Shown piece after piece: positions 48,415 to 57,566 of a stretch of 64,000 bases of DNA. The stretch is from the IMG/VR virus record IMGVR_UViG_3300025138_000032, positions 1 through 64,000 of that record; one strand, 5' to 3'. A program made the translations under genes and the position numbers. The notes beneath the pieces are model-generated. The model searched no databases and was not told where the DNA came from. It saw only the letters and a list, made by a program, of their open reading frames with translations. Positions within the stretch are counted from its first letter, which is position 1. Every line of letters starts with the position of its first letter. The stretch is from a virus.

Positions 48415-49369
48415 ATATTTACTTACCGGCGTAATTTTACTATCTGGATGTGCATCTGTTCCAAAGTGGTCAGACAACCCAGCAGATTGTGCCTATGAGA
48501 CAGGAAGATTTGATGAGGGTTTCGGCAGAGATGTTGTCACAGGTGTCGCAAAGGCTTGGTCTAGAAATTACATATGTGTGGAAAATGCTACTGTAGTTAA
48601 TCTTCCTTCACATTTAGAACTACTTAATTTGCCTAAGGCAAAAGATAGACCTACTGTTGCAGTTTATAACTTTGTGGACAAAACAGGACAGAGAAAATCA
48701 GAAGATAATCTTGCATCATTCTCTACTGCTGTGACACAAGGTGCAACCGAAATGGTTATTGATGCACTTAAAACGGCAGGTAAAGGAACATGGTTCAGAG
48801 TTGTTGAAAGGTCTGGCATAGACAACTTGGTAAGAGAGAGACAAATTATTCGTTCTGCTAGACAAGACTTTGCTAAACAACAAGGCGAAGAGAAGTTTCA
48901 AAATTTACAACCCTTACTATTCGCAGGTATGATAATAGAGGGTGGTATAATAGGTTATGATTCCAATTTATTAACTGGTGGTCGAGGCGCAAGGACACTA
49001 GGAATTGGAGTTAGTAGACAGTATCGTCAAGATGCTGTCACGGTTAGTATGAGAGCTGTTTCAGTTCTAACAGGTGAAGTATTATTGAATGTCCAAACAA
49101 GAAAGACTATCCTTTCTTATGGTTCAGGCGGCGATGTATTCCGATTCATTGAAGAAGGAACACAATTGCTAGAGTTCGAGGACGGAGTGGGTAATAATGA
49201 GTCAGTGACATATGCAGTACGAACAGCTATCGAGGCTGCCGTACTGGAATTAATCTACCAAGGACATGATAGGGGTTTTTGGAAAATCGAGGAAAATCAT
49301 AGACACCCACACAATAGTGATGGTGTAAATGATTTACACTCATTAAAAGGAGAAGAAGAAAATGAATAA
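48401..49369 (+). CDS. csgG: CsgG-like outer-membrane secretion channel lipoprotein
   Basis: A 322-residue lipoprotein from ATG 48401; lipobox LLSGC puts the acylated Cys near residue 17. 'RPTVAVYNFVDKTGQRK', 'ATEMVIDALKTAGKGTWFRVVERSGIDNLVRERQIIR', 'LLFAGMIIEGGIIGYDSNLLTGG' and 'YRQDAVTVSMRAVSVLTGEVL' are strong CsgG signatures. CsgG forms a nonameric outer-membrane pore exporting curli subunits. CsgE is not seen. Confidence 0.92.
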   Translation: MALVKYLLTGVILLSGCASVPKWSDNPADCAYETGRFDEGFGRDVVTGVAKAWSRNYICVENATVVNLPSHLELLNLPKAKDRPTVAVYNFVDKTGQRKSEDNLASFSTAVTQGATEMVIDALKTAGKGTWFRVVERSGIDNLVRERQIIRSARQDFAKQQGEEKFQNLQPLLFAGMIIEGGIIGYDSNLLTGGRGARTLGIGVSRQYRQDAVTVSMRAVSVLTGEVLLNVQTRKTILSYGSGGDVFRFIEEGTQLLEFEDGVGNNESVTYAVRTAIEAAVLELIYQGHDRGFWKIEENHRHPHNSDGVNDLHSLKGEEENE

Positions 49370-50096
49370 AATTTTAAGTATTTTATTACTAATGTCGACA
49401 CCATTCGTTTTCGCAGCTGCAACTGATGATAATGAGATTATGATAACACAAGTTGGTGATACTCTAAAATTATATGTTGACCAAGTTGGTTTTGGTAACA
49501 AAGTGGGATTGAACAACTTTTCAAGTGGTTCTGGTTCAAACATGACCATTACTGGTGTGACTTTGGATTTCAACATAGATATGATAGGTAACAAGAACTT
49601 GTTATTCGGACCTCTCGTTGCCGATACATCTAACTATACTTTATTGATGACTGGTGACTCTAACTCTATTGACTGGAACATAGGTTCTACAGGTAGTTCA
49701 GACGATTCAGATATCAATTTCAACATGACCGGCGATTCGAATACATTCGATTTAGACCAAGGTTCTGTTGCAAGTGCAGAGAGATTAAATGCGGATTTAG
49801 TTATCATCGGAAGTAGTAATGTTTTTGATGTTGATTGGGAATCAGATGATATCACATGGAATTTCGATGTGACTGGTTCTAGTTCTAATATCAACACATT
49901 GCAGAAAGATGGTTCACAAACACTTAATTTTGATTTTACAGGAGACAGCGCTGATGTTGATATCACTCAGATATCAGGCACATGTGCAGCTTCTGGCGGA
50001 GGGTGTGCAACACCTAATGCAAATGTCAATCTTAATGTAAATAGTGACAATGCGATTATTCAGATTACACAAAAAGATTCAAACAGCGATAGTTAG
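49362..50096 (+). CDS. Curlin-like secreted repeat protein 1
   Basis: A 244-residue protein with signal peptide (ILSILLLMSTPFVFAAA). The body is Asn/Asp/Ser/Gly-rich with curlin-like strand-loop units: 'ITQVGDTLKLYVDQVGFGNK', 'MTGDSNSIDWNI', 'MTGDSNTFDLDQGS', ending 'NAIIQITQKDSNSDS'. A Cys pair (TCAASGGGC) lies near the C-terminus, matched in the paralogue at 51352. Following csgG by an 8-base overlap, it is the likely CsgG cargo. Confidence 0.75.
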   Translation: MNKILSILLLMSTPFVFAAATDDNEIMITQVGDTLKLYVDQVGFGNKVGLNNFSSGSGSNMTITGVTLDFNIDMIGNKNLLFGPLVADTSNYTLLMTGDSNSIDWNIGSTGSSDDSDINFNMTGDSNTFDLDQGSVASAERLNADLVIIGSSNVFDVDWESDDITWNFDVTGSSSNINTLQKDGSQTLNFDFTGDSADVDITQISGTCAASGGGCATPNANVNLNVNSDNAIIQITQKDSNSDS

Positions 50097-51201
50097 TTTC
50101 TTTTTACTATTCGCTGGTGGGTTCAGTTCTGCTGAACCCATTGGCGGTGTAATTGAATCTACAGGTGTTACATCTGTAAAAAGAGAGCAGGACAGAATTC
50201 TAACAGATGTCGGTACAGACATCAACATGTATGATGAAGCAGAGACTGCCAATGGTCGTATGCTCATACAATTCTTAGATAATGAAAAATTGAGTTTAAC
50301 AGAAAACTCACTCGTTTACATAGACGAGGCATATTACGACCCCGACCCAAGTTTATCCAAAATGTCAATACGAATGGCACGAGGCACAGCACGATTCGCC
50401 TCGGGTGGTGGTTCAAGAATTAAAAAACAAAATGTAGATGTATCTACTCCTACAGCCAATATCACAATGAGAGGGACAGATTTTACAACCACCATTGATG
50501 AGTTGGGAAGGACTATGGTAATCTTACTTCCGGATGAAGAGACAGGTGAATCATCTGGAGAAATACTAGTTTATAATGACGGTGGTGAAACCGTTTTAAA
50601 TCAACCATATCAGGCAACTACTGTTGCATCGTATGATTCACCACCAACTACAGCAGTCACGGTTCAAGGTATTACGCCGAATCTGATTGACAATATGTTT
50701 ATCGTAAATCCACCTTCGGAAATACGACAGGCGATGGAAGAATCCTATCAAGATGAAAATTATGATGACCAGGGTTTATTAGATGTAGACTTCTTAGAGT
50801 TCAATGAACTTGAGGGAGATGCTTTGGCCGATACGACTGAAGATTTATCATTTTCAGAGTTGGACATAGATTATTTGGATGTGGATTTTTTACAAGACTT
50901 ATTAGATGTTATAGAAGAATTAGAGAGAACCACGGTATCGTTAGGTTCCAGAGGTGGTTCAAGTACTGAATTAGCTGGGTTTGCACTTAAAGGTGCATCA
51001 CCAGGTTTCAACAAAGATTCTCAGTTTAATGTTTTCGAACAAGACGGAGACCTAGTTTTCTTTCGTGATGTCCAAGGAGTCATAAATATAATTATAACAA
51101 GTGGTGGTTCGGGCATTGTAGATGCCGAAGTTCCAGGATATTCAGGTGTCATGACATTTGGAGATGGAGATGGAATTACAATTGTTATACGACAAGACTA
51201 A
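50050..51201 (+). CDS. FecR-domain secreted protein
   Basis: About 383 residues from ATG 50050 (a GTG at 50044 is possible). Signal peptide (IQTAIVSFFLLFAGGFSSA). A FecR domain spans about 30-180, with 'TANGRMLIQFLDNEKLSLTENS' and the diagnostic 'VSTPTANITMRGTDFTT'. The C-terminal half is very acidic. In bacteria FecR-domain proteins often neighbour CHASE2 cyclases, as here (52476), suggesting a joint envelope signalling role. It overlaps the curlin-like gene by 47 bases. Confidence 0.8.
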   Translation: MRLFRLHKKIQTAIVSFFLLFAGGFSSAEPIGGVIESTGVTSVKREQDRILTDVGTDINMYDEAETANGRMLIQFLDNEKLSLTENSLVYIDEAYYDPDPSLSKMSIRMARGTARFASGGGSRIKKQNVDVSTPTANITMRGTDFTTTIDELGRTMVILLPDEETGESSGEILVYNDGGETVLNQPYQATTVASYDSPPTTAVTVQGITPNLIDNMFIVNPPSEIRQAMEESYQDENYDDQGLLDVDFLEFNELEGDALADTTEDLSFSELDIDYLDVDFLQDLLDVIEELERTTVSLGSRGGSSTELAGFALKGASPGFNKDSQFNVFEQDGDLVFFRDVQGVINIIITSGGSGIVDAEVPGYSGVMTFGDGDGITIVIRQD

Positions 51202-51211
51202 GGAGAGATTT

Positions 51212-51367
51212 ATGAACATAAATATTGACTTTACTAAACTAAGACAATGGCATGAAAACATTACATGGGAAGTTGCCGATTTTTTTGGTTTAGATGAATA
51301 TGAAATGTTATGGGTGTCATACACCGAGGGATTAATTTTAGGATTATTATTATGGTGGATTTTTTAA
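51212..51367 (+). CDS. Small membrane protein
   Basis: A 51-residue protein from ATG 51212 with strong SD AAGGAG. N-terminal amphipathic part (FTKLRQWHENITWEVADFFG) and a C-terminal membrane segment ending LGLLLWWIF. Overlaps the second curlin-like gene by 16 bases. Function unknown. Confidence 0.6.
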   Translation: MNINIDFTKLRQWHENITWEVADFFGLDEYEMLWVSYTEGLILGLLLWWIF

Positions 51368-52014
51368 AAAGAACATTTATTGTAGGGGCATTTATTTTGA
51401 TAAGTGGCCTTACTTTTGCTGACGACAATCATGTTCATGTCGAACAAGTAGCTAGTGGAGATAACTTAAATTTAAACATAACACAAATAGGTTATGATAA
51501 CGAAATAAACTTCACTGTAGGACATTCTGGTAATGTATTCAACTTAATTCAAAACGGTAATGGAAATTACATTGGTTGGGTATCTTATTGGGGTTCAGGT
51601 AAAGCATGGGGTGGTGATATTGATGGAACAGATAATACTGAAAACATAGAACAATGGAATGGTGCAACATATGGCCGTCACATATTGGGAAATAATAATG
51701 AAGTAGATGTCTATCAGAATGGTTCACATACTCATTGGTTAGATATACATATAGATGATGCTGACCATGATGCACATCAATCTGGAACAGGAAGTCATTA
51801 CGCACATACATATTACTATGGCACTCAAGACGGTTCTGTTGCTAGCATTATGCAGAAAGATACAGGAAGTCATAACGCACAAATAACACTTACAGGCAGT
51901 CAACCAACAACACTTAATTTATTACAACAAGGCGCAACCAATAAGTCTTACAATCTAACTCAAAATTGTATGACTGTTGGAGGGTGTACAGTATCGGTGA
52001 CTCAAAGTGACTGA
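51352..52014 (+). CDS. Curlin-like secreted repeat protein 2
   Basis: A 220-residue protein from ATG 51352 with signal peptide (FIVGAFILISGLTFA). Curlin-type units: 'VEQVASGDNLNLNITQIGYDNE', 'FNLIQNGNGNYIGW', 'LNLLQQGATNKSYNLTQNC', ending 'GCTVSVTQSD'. The middle is unusually His-rich (about 130-165: HTHWLDIHIDDADHDAHQ), which suggests metal binding. Paralogue of the protein at 49362; the two could play nucleator and subunit (CsgB/CsgA) roles. Confidence 0.75.
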   Translation: MVDFLKRTFIVGAFILISGLTFADDNHVHVEQVASGDNLNLNITQIGYDNEINFTVGHSGNVFNLIQNGNGNYIGWVSYWGSGKAWGGDIDGTDNTENIEQWNGATYGRHILGNNNEVDVYQNGSHTHWLDIHIDDADHDAHQSGTGSHYAHTYYYGTQDGSVASIMQKDTGSHNAQITLTGSQPTTLNLLQQGATNKSYNLTQNCMTVGGCTVSVTQSD

Positions 52015-52273
52015 ATGTCCAGAAGAGTATTATCATTGTCTCAGTGAAAACGAATATGAAGAGTGGATCACACTTCTAGAAGATAATGAATTAGAAATGC
52101 CTGAATCACTTGCACCATTAGGTGACGGTGAAGCTGCAGCTAACTTTGTTTGGAATGTTCTTTTCTTGTCACCAGTAGAATTATTCTATATCGGAATATC
52201 AATGTCCGTACTTGCATTCTATGGACTCTCTATATACTATATGTACAAAAAAATACAGAAGAAATTTTCATGA
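52007..52273 (+). CDS. Small acidic membrane protein
   Basis: An 88-residue protein from GTG 52007 overlapping the curlin stop by 8 bases. Acidic N-terminal half with two Cys (TECPEEYYHC), then a membrane segment (about 58-80, FYIGISMSVLAFYGLSIYYM) and a basic end. ATGA overlap with the next gene. Function unknown. Confidence 0.6.
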   Translation: MTECPEEYYHCLSENEYEEWITLLEDNELEMPESLAPLGDGEAAANFVWNVLFLSPVELFYIGISMSVLAFYGLSIYYMYKKIQKKFS

Positions 52274-52428
52274 GTCAAGAACGAGTTATAAAAGAAGTCA
52301 ACGAGTATCGTAAAAAGAAGAAACAACAACAATGGTCTCAAGCCTGGAATGTTATTCTTGCCACATCTTTGCTATTAGTATGTCTTTACATATTTTTCTT
52401 TGCGTGGCCAACAGTTGAACAAGTTTAG
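52270..52428 (+). CDS. Small membrane protein
   Basis: A 52-residue protein from ATG 52270. Basic N-terminal helix (EVNEYRKKKKQQQWSQAW) and one membrane segment (about 28-45, VILATSLLLVCLYIFFFAW). Coupled to the upstream gene. Precedes the cyclase by 47 bases. Confidence 0.6.
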   Translation: MSQERVIKEVNEYRKKKKQQQWSQAWNVILATSLLLVCLYIFFFAWPTVEQV

Positions 52429-52475
52429 AAAATACAGATTAGTCGAGTGGAAAAAAGGTAATCTGATAGACATCT

Positions 52476-54317
52476 ATGTATAATTGGAAAACAGTTTTAA
52501 TAACCATAGTCGCCCTAGTGGGTATAAAGATATGGTCGCCCTATCTAATAGACAATGTTAGATGGTCTTACTTCGATGTTCTACATCAACAAAAAGAAAA
52601 GGTGATAGTAGATAACATTCTACTAGTCAACATCGATGAGAAGGCAATAGAGAAGTATGGTCAGTATCCTTTCCCTAGAAATATATACGCAGACACATTA
52701 TGGGAAACTCATTTCTCAAACACTCATGTATTCAACATACTCTTTGCAGAGAAAGATAGATTTGGTGGAGATGAACTCTTTGCAGAGGCATTAGAAAACA
52801 GACTAACTATATTATCTTCATCGCCCACAATACAAAAAGAATCTGGTAATGCACCATTCGTAAACACCTCAGTATTTGGTGATGGTGATATACAAGACCA
52901 TGTGTGGAACTTTCCAGGTCTAGTATCGCCAATCCCGGAACTACAAAACAGTGCTTGGGGCATGGGCGTGACAGTTGCCACACCACCTGTGGCGAATACA
53001 CCTAATTTTGACGGAACAAACAGAGCGGTTCCGCTAGTCATCCAGGCAAATGGTCAATTATATCCAAGTTTAGGATTCGAAGTTCTCAGAGCATACTATG
53101 ACCAACCCAATTATCAAACTAGGGTAACTGCTGATGCCGGTATTGAGTGGGTTAAAATGGGCAGAGATAAACCAATAGAGACCACATCAAGCGCTGACTT
53201 GATGGTATCGTATTGGAACGAATTCGAGTCTATCTCGTTCGCAGACTTAAGAGAATCTAATTTAGAGAATAAGATTCTAGTCTATGGATTAACCGCTGAG
53301 GGGTTATCTATTCCAGTTTCAACCCCAATGGGTGTAATGTATCCCCACGAAGTTCAAGCACACCTAATCCAAACCGTTTCGTCAGGAGTTCAAATACATG
53401 TATCCGACTATCTTGAATTCGTAGAAACCGTTCTTCTTCTGATAGTCCTTCTAGGAATACTGGTATCGGTCTACAGACTTCCCACAGCCTACTCGGCGAT
53501 AGTTTCAGTAGGTTTCGTAGTACTTCAGGTGGGAGGGAGTTATTATATGTGGTCTTACAATCTCGTTCTTTTCGATATTTTCTGGTCATCGTTAAGCTCC
53601 GTTGTGGTTTTTGGTCATGCGTCCTTCAACAAATACTATGTAACTTTCCAAGAAAAGCAACAAATAAAGAAGCAGTTCCAAAAGTATTTATCTCCTGACA
53701 TGATTGAGGAACTACAAAAAGACCCTTCTAAATTAAGATTAGGGGGAGATAGAAAAGAAATGACCTTCATGTTTATGGACATAATCGGATTCACTCCCAT
53801 AAGCGAACACTACATGCAACAAGACAATCCGGAAGGTCTAGTAGAACTCATCAACAAGTTTTTAGACATGCAGACTAAGATAATTCTAAATAATAGTGGT
53901 ACCATAGATAAGTATATGGGGGACTGCATAATGAGTTTTTGGAATGCACCACTTGATTGTGAAAACCACGCAGACCTTGCCGTAAAATCAGCACTAGAAG
54001 TTCTAGATGCAACAAAGGAATTAAATGAAGAACTTAAACCTCTTAACCTGCCTCCTATTAATGTGGGCATCGGTATCAGTTCAGGCGAATGCATCGTTGG
54101 AAACATGGGGTCAGAACTTAGATTTGACTATTCCGTCATTGGAGATGCCGTCAACCTTGGTGCTAGACTCGAAGGCCAAACAAGAAATTACGATGGGGTG
54201 GACTTGTTGTTATCGGAAAGAACTTATCAACTATGTCCAGACAGAGCATTCACTAAAGTTGATAGGATTACAGTTAAAGGAAAATCAGAACAAGTCACAA
54301 TATACACTCCAGTCTGA
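52476..54317 (+). CDS. CHASE2-domain class III adenylate/guanylate cyclase
   Basis: A 613-residue membrane enzyme. One N-terminal membrane helix (about 4-20), an extracytoplasmic CHASE2 sensor (about 40-300, 'ILLVNIDEKAIEKYGQYPFPRN'), three further helices (about 308-385), then a class III cyclase domain (about 430-610). Metal Asp in MFMDIIGFT (about 433) and KYMGDCIM (about 482), and 'VIGDAVNLGARLEG' carrying the transition-state Asn/Arg. All catalytic positions look intact, so it should make cAMP (or cGMP). Last gene of the late curli-type operon. Confidence 0.9.
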   Translation: MYNWKTVLITIVALVGIKIWSPYLIDNVRWSYFDVLHQQKEKVIVDNILLVNIDEKAIEKYGQYPFPRNIYADTLWETHFSNTHVFNILFAEKDRFGGDELFAEALENRLTILSSSPTIQKESGNAPFVNTSVFGDGDIQDHVWNFPGLVSPIPELQNSAWGMGVTVATPPVANTPNFDGTNRAVPLVIQANGQLYPSLGFEVLRAYYDQPNYQTRVTADAGIEWVKMGRDKPIETTSSADLMVSYWNEFESISFADLRESNLENKILVYGLTAEGLSIPVSTPMGVMYPHEVQAHLIQTVSSGVQIHVSDYLEFVETVLLLIVLLGILVSVYRLPTAYSAIVSVGFVVLQVGGSYYMWSYNLVLFDIFWSSLSSVVVFGHASFNKYYVTFQEKQQIKKQFQKYLSPDMIEELQKDPSKLRLGGDRKEMTFMFMDIIGFTPISEHYMQQDNPEGLVELINKFLDMQTKIILNNSGTIDKYMGDCIMSFWNAPLDCENHADLAVKSALEVLDATKELNEELKPLNLPPINVGIGISSGECIVGNMGSELRFDYSVIGDAVNLGARLEGQTRNYDGVDLLLSERTYQLCPDRAFTKVDRITVKGKSEQVTIYTPV

Positions 54318-55111: not shown

Positions 55112-55223
55112 GTGTAGAGAGTTCTAGGTAGAGACAATCTATAAGACTGAACAGAAGGTCTTCGTGTAGTCACATTAAATCCTAGATACTTCTACACGCC
55201 TAATGCCCAATTGGGGTTAGGAA
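55112..55223 (+). ncRNA. Structured RNA leader upstream of hsp20
   Basis: A long closing stem pairs 55112-55128 with 55181-55197: GTGTAGA/TCTACAC, AGT/ACT and TCTAGG/CCTAGA, interrupted only by single-base bulges. It encloses hairpins TAGA/TCTA (55129-55141), AAGAC/GTCTT (55143-55162) and a weak GTG/CAC (55164-55173). A second hairpin CCTAA..CCC-AATT-GGG..TTAGG (55199-55221) follows. The SD of hsp20 (AAAGGAG) is outside. It superficially resembles a tRNA but lacks a canonical anticodon arm. Candidate regulatory leader or stable RNA. Confidence 0.55.
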
Positions 55224-55252
55224 TATAAACTTGCTTAATAAAGGAGAAAACT

Positions 55253-55690
55253 ATGACAAGTAAACAGCTCGGAGACTTCGATGTCTTCAATTTCGGGAAA
55301 TCATTCCCATTCGCAATCGGGTTCGACAGAACTCTTCAACTATTAGAAAGGGCTAATCAGTCACCGACTAATACAAACTATCCACCTTACAATATTGTAA
55401 AACACGATGCAGAGAACTTCAGTATCGAACTTGCATTAGCTGGATTTGATAAGAAAGACATCACAATCTCAAAAGAGAAAGAGGTTCTTAATATCGAAGG
55501 TAAACAGAAGGAAGGGGAAAACCTTGAGTATGTCCATAGAGGACTTGCATCTCGTTCATTCAAAAGAACATTCACACTTGCAGACGATATAATCGTTAAA
55601 GGTGCAGATATGAAGAATGGTATTTTGAGTGTATCTTTAGAAAGGATTGTTCCCGAAGAAGATAAACCCCAAGAAATTAAGATTAAATAA
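55253..55690 (+). CDS. hsp20: Small heat shock protein Hsp20
   Basis: A 145-residue alpha-crystallin protein. Core 'YNIVKHDAENFSIELALAGFDKKDITISKEKEVLNIEGKQ', 'YVHRGLASRSFKRTFTLADDI..KGADMKNGILSVSLERIVPEE' and a C-terminal IKIK (I-x-I) tail. Holdase chaperone, common in T4-like marine phages and possibly aiding virion assembly. Strong SD AAAGGAG; behind a structured late leader. Confidence 0.95.
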   Translation: MTSKQLGDFDVFNFGKSFPFAIGFDRTLQLLERANQSPTNTNYPPYNIVKHDAENFSIELALAGFDKKDITISKEKEVLNIEGKQKEGENLEYVHRGLASRSFKRTFTLADDIIVKGADMKNGILSVSLERIVPEEDKPQEIKIK

Positions 55691-55704: not shown

Positions 55705-55733
55705 TTGCAAATTGGGCACTGATTTAGTATAAT
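55705..55733 (+). promoter_or_regulatory. Sigma70 promoter TTGCAA-N17-TATAAT before tRNA
   Basis: TTGCAA (55705-55710), 17-base spacer, TATAAT (55728-55733), preceded by AAAACCCCC. Expected +1 about 55740, two bases before the tRNA. It should also serve the peroxiredoxin gene. Confidence 0.8.
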
Positions 55734-55741
55734 AAATGAGT

Positions 55742-55815
55742 GCGGAGATAGTTTACTAGAAAAACGGTCTAATACCATTAGACAGACGAGAGTGCAAATC
55801 TTTCTCTCCGCTCCA
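55742..55815 (+). tRNA. tRNA-Gly (anticodon ACC), CCA encoded
   Basis: A cloverleaf: acceptor GCGGAGA/TCTCCGC, D arm GTTT/AAAC with a short 7-base loop lacking GG, anticodon stem GTCTA/TAGAC with loop ATACCAT (anticodon ACC after T33), 4-base variable loop, T arm GAGAG/CTTTC with loop TGCAAAT, discriminator T and encoded CCA. G1-C72, C2-G71, U73 and C35-C36 are glycine identity elements. A34 is unusual for bacterial tRNA-Gly; it would read GGU, the glycine codon favoured in these genes. Confidence 0.75.
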
Positions 55816-55835: not shown

Positions 55836-56381
55836 ATGTCATACCCTTATAATAACGGAATGCTAACAGTTGGGGACGAATTCCCACCTTTTGAATTACA
55901 AGGAGTTAATCCCAGTAATGAACTTGTATCAGTCTCAGTAGAAGGTAGTTACACGCCACATAAACATGATTGGTCAGTAATCTATTTCTATCCTAAAGAC
56001 TTTACATTCATTTGTCCTACAGAAATTTCTGCAATGGATATTTTAGTAGACGAAGCCAATGTCATTGGTATTAGTGGTGACAATGAGTTTTGTAAACTTG
56101 CATGGAAAAACGACAATGATTTGATAGGTAATATCAGACACCCATTGGCCGCAGATTGTGGGTTGTATCTTTCAGAAGAACTCGGTATTGTAAATCAACG
56201 AGAAGGTGTTTGCTATAGGGCAACATTTATTATTGATAAAGACCGTGTAATTCAACATGTATCAGTGAACGCATTAGATACAGGTAGAAATGCAGACGAA
56301 GTGTTAAGAACTCTTCAGGCACTTAAGGCAGGCGGACTAACTGGTTGCTCTTGGTCACCAGAAGATGACTTCGTAGCATAA
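55836..56381 (+). CDS. Peroxiredoxin (AhpC/Prx)
   Basis: A 181-residue thiol peroxidase. Peroxidatic Cys in 'IYFYPKDFTFICPTEISAMD' (about residue 65), 'VIGISGDNEFCKLAW', 'GVCYRATFIIDKDRVIQHVSVN' and a resolving Cys near the C-terminus (LTGCSWSP). Typical 2-Cys enzyme, shortened by lack of the long C-terminal tail. Would detoxify peroxide in the infected cell. Lies 20 bases after the tRNA with SD ACGGAG. Confidence 0.92.
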   Translation: MSYPYNNGMLTVGDEFPPFELQGVNPSNELVSVSVEGSYTPHKHDWSVIYFYPKDFTFICPTEISAMDILVDEANVIGISGDNEFCKLAWKNDNDLIGNIRHPLAADCGLYLSEELGIVNQREGVCYRATFIIDKDRVIQHVSVNALDTGRNADEVLRTLQALKAGGLTGCSWSPEDDFVA

Positions 56382-56394
56382 TACAAAAACTCAC

Positions 56395-56438
56395 TAGACA
56401 GGAACCCAAGTTCATCGTATAATGGACTTGGGTTTTTT
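56395..56438 (+). promoter_or_regulatory. Overlapping promoter and intrinsic terminator
   Basis: A 9-bp stem AACCCAAGT (56403-56411) / ACTTGGGTT (56426-56434) followed by T6 is a terminator for the peroxiredoxin unit. Within it, TAGACA (56395-56400), 17-base spacer and TATAAT (56418-56423, in the hairpin loop) form a sigma70-like promoter for the gene at 56442. Confidence 0.7.
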
Positions 56439-56441
56439 ATT

Positions 56442-57566
56442 ATGTTAATACTTTCAAAACAAGATGCTGAATATGTAGGTCAAATTTTTATTGACTACTA
56501 TTCTAATTTCGATAGAATCGATGACTATTTACGCAAGGTTAAACTTGAGAAAATGGCAGAGAGACCTGCGTCCTTATTTGGCATGGGTCCAGAAGATGAT
56601 ATGTTTCAAGACTTTACTATGCACCCAAATGATATGGACTTCGTGTGTAGAGAAATGCCAATCTATGATGATTACATTGACATAGTTGCATCTCAAATGA
56701 TACAAAAGTCTATACCAGGCAAAACTCTAAAGTGGGTAGTTTATGAAAAGAATACGAATAAGATTGTTGGATTTATTAGATTTGGCAGTCCTACTATTAA
56801 TAGTAAACCTCGTAACGAGTTCTTAGGCAAACCTCTAAATACAACAGACAAAGATACAATGAAGAGATTCAATGATTCTACAATCATGGGTTTCAATATC
56901 ATACCAACTCAACCATTTGGTTTTAATTATCTAGGTGGTAAACTTCTTGCCGCCATTTGCACTTCGCATTACGCCAGAAGAGCATTGAACAAGAAGTACA
57001 ATACAAACTATTGTATGTTTGAAACTACATCGTTATATGGTTCAAGCAAATCATCATCAATGTATGACGGCATGAAACCTTATCTAAAATTCATTGGTCT
57101 AACTGATTCAGATTTTGTACCTAGTATCAATGATGATAAGTATCATCATTTAAAAGATTGGTTCGAAAACAAAAACAGTGGCGTACCTTTAGTAGATGCA
57201 GAGGCGTCAAGTAGAAAGTTGAAGACTCAAAGTAAGATGATATCTATTATAAGAAACTCACTAGCGATGGCAAATAGTGAAATGTATGAACCATTCAAAC
57301 AATGTTTTATAGATGCCAAGAATCTTACAGAAAGAAAGAGACAATACTTAGGTACATATGGTTATGCAAATGTAAAAGAGTATATGAACTCAGAGACAGA
57401 TACCCTAGTGAAGAATGTAAACTTTGACAGATTTGAATTAGACAATGTTTATACATGGTGGAAAAAGATGGCAACTAAAAGATATGAAAATCTCCAGAGA
57501 GATGGTAGATTAAGAACTGAACTAGAAGTTTGGTCAAAGAATTCAAACATAGATATTATAAGATGA
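56442..57566 (+). CDS. DruA-like (DUF4338-type) protein
   Basis: A 374-residue protein. 'VVYEKNTNKIVGFIRFGSPTIN', 'NDSTIMGFNIIPTQPFGFNYLGGKLLAAICTSHYARRALN', 'ETTSLYGSSKSSSMYDGMKPYLKFIGLTDSDF' follow the order of the DUF4338/DruA family, in which a GNAT-like fold is predicted; DruA is a subunit of the Druantia defence system. Here no other Druantia gene is present. Assignment is by motif order from memory. The leader is about a dozen bases with no SD. Confidence 0.55.
   Translation: MLILSKQDAEYVGQIFIDYYSNFDRIDDYLRKVKLEKMAERPASLFGMGPEDDMFQDFTMHPNDMDFVCREMPIYDDYIDIVASQMIQKSIPGKTLKWVVYEKNTNKIVGFIRFGSPTINSKPRNEFLGKPLNTTDKDTMKRFNDSTIMGFNIIPTQPFGFNYLGGKLLAAICTSHYARRALNKKYNTNYCMFETTSLYGSSKSSSMYDGMKPYLKFIGLTDSDFVPSINDDKYHHLKDWFENKNSGVPLVDAEASSRKLKTQSKMISIIRNSLAMANSEMYEPFKQCFIDAKNLTERKRQYLGTYGYANVKEYMNSETDTLVKNVNFDRFELDNVYTWWKKMATKRYENLQRDGRLRTELEVWSKNSNIDIIR

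Follow-up and report, generated by a model that had tools for sequence, protein, structure and literature searches.

A single tRNA gene between hsp20 and a peroxiredoxin gene

Looking along the window (the whole 64,000-nucleotide stretch of DNA that we analysed, positions 1 to 64,000 of IMG/VR record IMGVR_UViG_3300025138_000032), ARAGORN calls a single tRNA: a tRNA-Gly(ACC) of 74 nt, located on the plus strand at positions 55742–55815. The Rfam tRNA model scores the gene at 47.3 bits (RF00005, E 1.5e-10; cut-off 29), and finds no further tRNA anywhere in the virus record, which is 69,687 bases long. An Rfam search of the entire window at curated cut-offs skipped the gene; it was the RF00005 search of the record that picked it up. 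Both programs thus agree with the first-pass annotation, which had described a cloverleaf tRNA-Gly(ACC) at this position and proposed such a scan.

The 69.7 kb virus record, that of a marine phage, belongs to an uncultured clade near the pelagimyophages HTVC008M and Melnitz, and represents a T4-type myovirus as judged from PHROGs matches for tail sheath, portal, terminase and major head protein. Its head protein is 67% identical to that of Methylophilales phage Melnitz and 66% identical to that of Pelagibacter phage HTVC008M, distances too great to name a host. HTVC008M likewise carries Hsp20, curli genes and an adenylate cyclase, and has no annotated tRNA in the two stretches examined, which lie outside its positions 50001–97999; the four tRNAs of Melnitz (Arg, Arg, Leu, Trp) include none for glycine (PMC9004378). 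A search at the DNA level with the region around the tRNA returned no match among 50,697 phage records.

Upstream of the tRNA lies a gene for an Hsp20 small heat-shock protein (55253–55690, plus strand; PF00011, E 3.1e-18), and downstream, starting 20 nt past the tRNA, one for an AhpC/TSA peroxiredoxin (55836–56381, plus strand; PF00578, E 1.7e-22); the order hsp20–tRNA–peroxiredoxin is common to the window and to the related loci L006, L142 and L288. Directly 5' of hsp20, at 55197–55258, is a ROSE_3-like RNA thermometer match (32.5 bits, under the 43-bit cut-off), with a similar match of 35 bits in L139; a hairpin whose stem bases vary is common to 40 distinct hsp20 upstream stretches from related phages, which also have AACTTGCTTAAT-AAGGAG ahead of the start codon. 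Further afield, the curlin-repeat, FecR-domain and CHASE2-adenylate cyclase genes form one cluster (49362–54317) that is also present in HTVC008M; a strong intrinsic-terminator-like hairpin of 16 pairs sits 3' of the peroxiredoxin gene (56400–56437); and beyond this, a protein with a match to the DruA (Druantia defence) domain is encoded at 56442–57566, a gene that adjoins the tRNA in many relatives.

Between hsp20 and the tRNA, we see a putative promoter on the plus strand: a -35-like hexamer, TTGCAA (55705–55710), and, after a 17-nt spacer, a -10-like hexamer, TATAAT (55728–55733), placed 8 nt 5' of the tRNA, the two hexamers together matching the consensus at 10 of 12 positions. TTG recurs at equal spacing in L006, L142 and L288, with TATACT or TAATAT in place of the -10-like hexamer in relatives; a conservation that favours a real promoter in these phages. 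The proposal that the tRNA has a strong promoter of its own therefore holds in part: sister phages retain the site, whilst the number of promoter-like sites in the stretch is not in excess of shuffled sequence (5 versus 6.7 ± 2.2), and the site is absent from the branch formed by L139, L203 and L167. Here the same tRNA directly abuts the upstream stop codon, with no promoter-like site, so that in this branch it probably arises by processing of a longer RNA.

An intact cloverleaf with a coupled change at residues 18 and 55

All four stems of the tRNA are intact (acceptor 7/7, D stem 4/4, anticodon stem 5/5, T stem 5/5 with one G–U), and U73 and the CCA end are encoded, as befits an elongator tRNA-Gly. 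The glycine identity bases reported by the first-pass annotation are indeed present, as the complete set listed in PMC9976931: G1–C72, C2–G71, U73, C35, C36 and G10–Y25. The anticodon ACC occupies 55774–55776, with A34 at 55774, and is flanked by U33 and A37.

The elbow departs from this pattern. In place of the usual G18–U55 and G19–C56 contacts, the D loop (ACTAGAA, 55755–55761) has A18 at 55758 followed by G19 at 55759, and the T loop (TGCAAAT, 55793–55799) has G55 at 55794 followed by C56 at 55795; that is, G19 and C56 are retained, and both partners of the other pair are replaced. Besides the elbow, the core departs from the norm only in C15/C48, where the usual Levitt pair is not formed, and in the G–U of the T stem. 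G18 and U55 (Psi55) are described as conserved in every domain of life (PMC7912444). With A for G18 and G for U55, neither Psi55 nor Gm18 is possible in this tRNA, and the enzymes that make these two modifications (PMC7912444) lose their target bases. It had been remarked that the D loop is short, lacks GG and may give an unusual tertiary fold. The lack of GG is real, but at 7 nt the loop is not unusually short, and the expectation about the fold, although right, was incomplete, having overlooked that the change in the D loop is coupled to that of U55 to G55; C15/C48 went unremarked too.

This coupling emerges when the same residues are tallied in other viral-contig tRNAs, setting positions 18–19 with A21 as the anchor (loops such as AGGAGTA have GG outside 18–19). 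Among 1128 distinct tRNAs there are 71 with AG at 18–19 and G55 (hereafter AG/G55), none with GG/G55, 841 with GG/U55 and 3 with AG/U55, C56 being part of the AG/G55 and GG/U55 classes; the patterns used to fetch the loci fixed G55 or U55 in tRNA-Gly and left the D loop unconstrained, such that G55 is partly preselected. The AG/G55 set extends to tRNAs chosen by no pattern: Met (12), Thr (5), Lys (3), His, Ile and single others. Pooled Fisher tests on the 18/55 pairs ignore relatedness. Between close relatives, the D loop reads AAGGCA in company with TTC (L021, L142, L288) and AAAGTA in company with TGC (L006), in tRNAs that are otherwise closely alike. A tree built from the linked DruA-like protein shows five changes of elbow state, at least four of them forced by well supported branches, and in 4/4 independent pairs residue 18 tracks residue 55, a number too small for significance (sign test p 0.125). 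Read from this tree, sites 18 and 55 switched together at least four times.

No marks of decay are seen, either here or in G55 tRNA-Gly genes as a group. Stem pairs are retained at 97.6% in 45 distinct G55 tRNA-Gly of the viral contigs versus 97.9% in 102 with U55; the stems carry many compensatory changes; and in the core U8, U54, A58 and G53–C61 are invariant, with A14 and U33 nearly so. Two further groups turned up in the same contigs. Twelve tRNAs, mostly Arg (L287, L298, L321, L333, L337, L327 and others), have G18–A19 with U55–U56, a swap that, from the sequences, is plain Watson–Crick covariation at 19–56, from G–C to A–U. In addition, L163, L178, L207, L511, L534, L166 and others contain glycine-tRNA-like genes of 69–70 nt for which ARAGORN makes no call; these have GTGC, their D arm is very short, and their ends read CCGCTCCA.

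Turning to cellular genomes, a pattern scan finds AG/G55 tRNA-Gly in Patescibacteria, Verrucomicrobia and Streptomyces. In seven patescibacterial genomes (G001–G006 and G012) it is the only GCC cloverleaf found; a second GCC match in G002 is doubtful, and reads as no tRNA. In a draw of 59 Patescibacteria genomes a GCC tRNA was found in 34, being AG/G55 in 2 and GG/U55 in 32, and never mixed. A GCC tRNA is needed for GGC and GGU. Since the AG/G55 gene is the only GCC tRNA-Gly found in the seven genomes, this elbow is compatible with translation; to judge from these gene sets, it must work on the ribosome in those Patescibacteria, unless a GCC tRNA lies beyond both of our patterns or in missing parts of the genomes. 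The usual elbow, G18–U55 with G19–C56, is thus not strictly defining for an elongator tRNA-Gly, as several Patescibacteria lack it too in the one GCC tRNA found in them.

Anticodon, codon use and the competing explanations

That A34 is rare amongst bacterial glycine tRNAs, as originally suggested, is borne out: no tRNA-Gly(ACC) gene was found in 399 genomes of Pseudomonadota by a pattern scan whose all-anticodon version recovers the normal glycine tRNAs of that group. Among the fetched viral contigs ACC is present in 16 of 151 distinct tRNA-Gly, and among phage tRNAs those for Arg and Thr, with a few others, also have A34. For close relatives we count six to seven anticodon changes on the DruA-like tree.

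These repeated changes, together with the five of the elbow, could be taken to mean that both serve to evade host nucleases or toxins that hit glycine tRNA, the phage tRNA then outlasting that of the host. Phage tRNAs have been proposed to evade anticodon nucleases via loop mutations (PMC10264068); the published pattern, however, concerns anticodon loops and not the elbow, and the same elbow is found in cellular genomes, where evasion is unneeded. As an account of the locus we regard evasion as conceivable, if on the whole unlikely.

A second explanation, that of the first-pass annotation, is that the ACC tRNA is retained owing to the GGU-rich genes of the phage. The codon count behind it is sound, GGT making up 54% of the 1249 Gly codons in the window and being the commonest of them. 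The match is not specific, however, because related phages with a UCC tRNA are equally rich in GGT: the median share is 0.52 for 15 distinct ACC loci versus 0.53 for 45 low-GC3 UCC loci (Mann–Whitney p = 0.82), with p = 0.18 once the T/(T+A) ratio seen in six other codon boxes is subtracted. The preference for GGT belongs to these phages regardless of which tRNA-Gly they carry. Moreover, a GCC tRNA with G34 is present in nearly all bacteria and already reads GGU. We therefore think codon matching a poor candidate for what keeps the ACC gene in place, and this part of the original interpretation, which is partly supported as a whole, lacks support.

Next, the tRNA might be non-proteinogenic, similar to those of staphylococcal peptidoglycan synthesis, a weak elbow and T stem barring it from translation and leaving it to some other glycyl transfer. 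Both kinds have GTGC for GTTC in the T arm, hence G55, and a D loop without GG. In the staphylococcal tRNAs GG is replaced by UU or CU, and binding to EF-Tu is weak (PMC4052509); among the staphylococcal-type tRNA-Gly that we examined (L407, L430, L446, L454), UU or CU is seen at 18–19 in L407, L430 and L446, in company with a weak T stem. The window tRNA, by contrast, keeps G19 and has A at 18, its T stem has G49–C65 and G51–U63 and not A49–U65 and A51–U63, and its anticodon is ACC with A37. The AG/G55 elbow is also that of the one GCC tRNA in several Patescibacteria, and viral contigs have it in tRNAs for Met, Thr, Lys and His, amongst others. We rejected a staphylococcal-type identity on residues 18–19, the T stem and the anticodon, and hold a non-proteinogenic role to be very improbable. 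A viral-collection contig, L597, has staphylococcal-type non-proteinogenic tRNA-Gly genes, and may be host DNA.

Lastly, a decaying pseudogene or relic, as the loss of the near-universal G18 and U55, the C15/C48 combination and the existence of lone GG/G55 copies in multicopy arrays (1/8 GCC genes in genome G073) might suggest, is the least credible reading, given that the stems are all intact, that residues 18 and 55 switched as a pair, leaving neither a broken stem nor an uncompensated core loss, that the gene is widely conserved with covarying stems, and that the promoter position is conserved in sister phages. The lone copies are single GG/G55 tRNA-Gly(GCC) genes within U55 tandem arrays of two Proteus-like genomes (G073:C48:63654–63725 and G074:C7:152165–152236); we rejected them as evidence for an uncompensated elbow, as they are single copies amid normal array copies.

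A probably compensated elbow and its known counterparts

Taken together, the locus probably encodes a functional phage-borne glycine tRNA that reads GGU, with an elbow that is compensated rather than broken. The gene is of a known kind with an unusual, recurrent variant, the main point of which is the paired swap in the elbow and not the anticodon. We envisage that host RNA polymerase would transcribe the tRNA from its own sigma-70-like promoter, starting almost at its 5' end, with RNase P trimming the transcript and the host GlyRS charging the product. A34 would probably remain unmodified, the ACC anticodon then reading mainly GGU; as regards inosine at 34, no PF00383 (dCMP/TadA-type) deaminase was found in the phage record. 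At the elbow, A18 and G55 could form an alternative purine–purine contact that replaces G18–Psi55 and keeps the L shape. The tRNA may in this way supplement glycine decoding during infection, and would be no better tuned to phage codon use than the UCC versions of sister phages.

A bolder proposal, which we make tentatively, is that A18–G55 is a second, fully working solution for the elbow, with many origins by paired substitution, that translates without Psi55 or Gm18 and to which phages have repeatedly switched, perhaps to escape host enzymes that hold tRNA by this region. The recurrent paired replacement amounts to a natural test of the need for Psi55, Gm18, TruB and TrmH, and closely related phages offer a ready set of elbow switch pairs. 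On the practical side, a D loop without GG should not mark a tRNA as dead. Our literature search, in a coverage that excludes most subscription journals, found no description of a tRNA with A18 and G55, and no paper combining Patescibacteria with the D and T loops.

Set against canonical bacterial and phage tRNA-Gly, the window tRNA is alike in its cloverleaf, U73, G1–C72, C2–G71, C35–C36, U33 and CCA, and differs in having A18 for G18, G55 for U55, A34 and C15/C48. The tRNA-Gly(GCC) of Patescibacteria and Verrucomicrobia shares the elbow, A18–G19 with G55, and differs in being cellular, in its GCC anticodon and in being, apparently, the only GCC gene found there.
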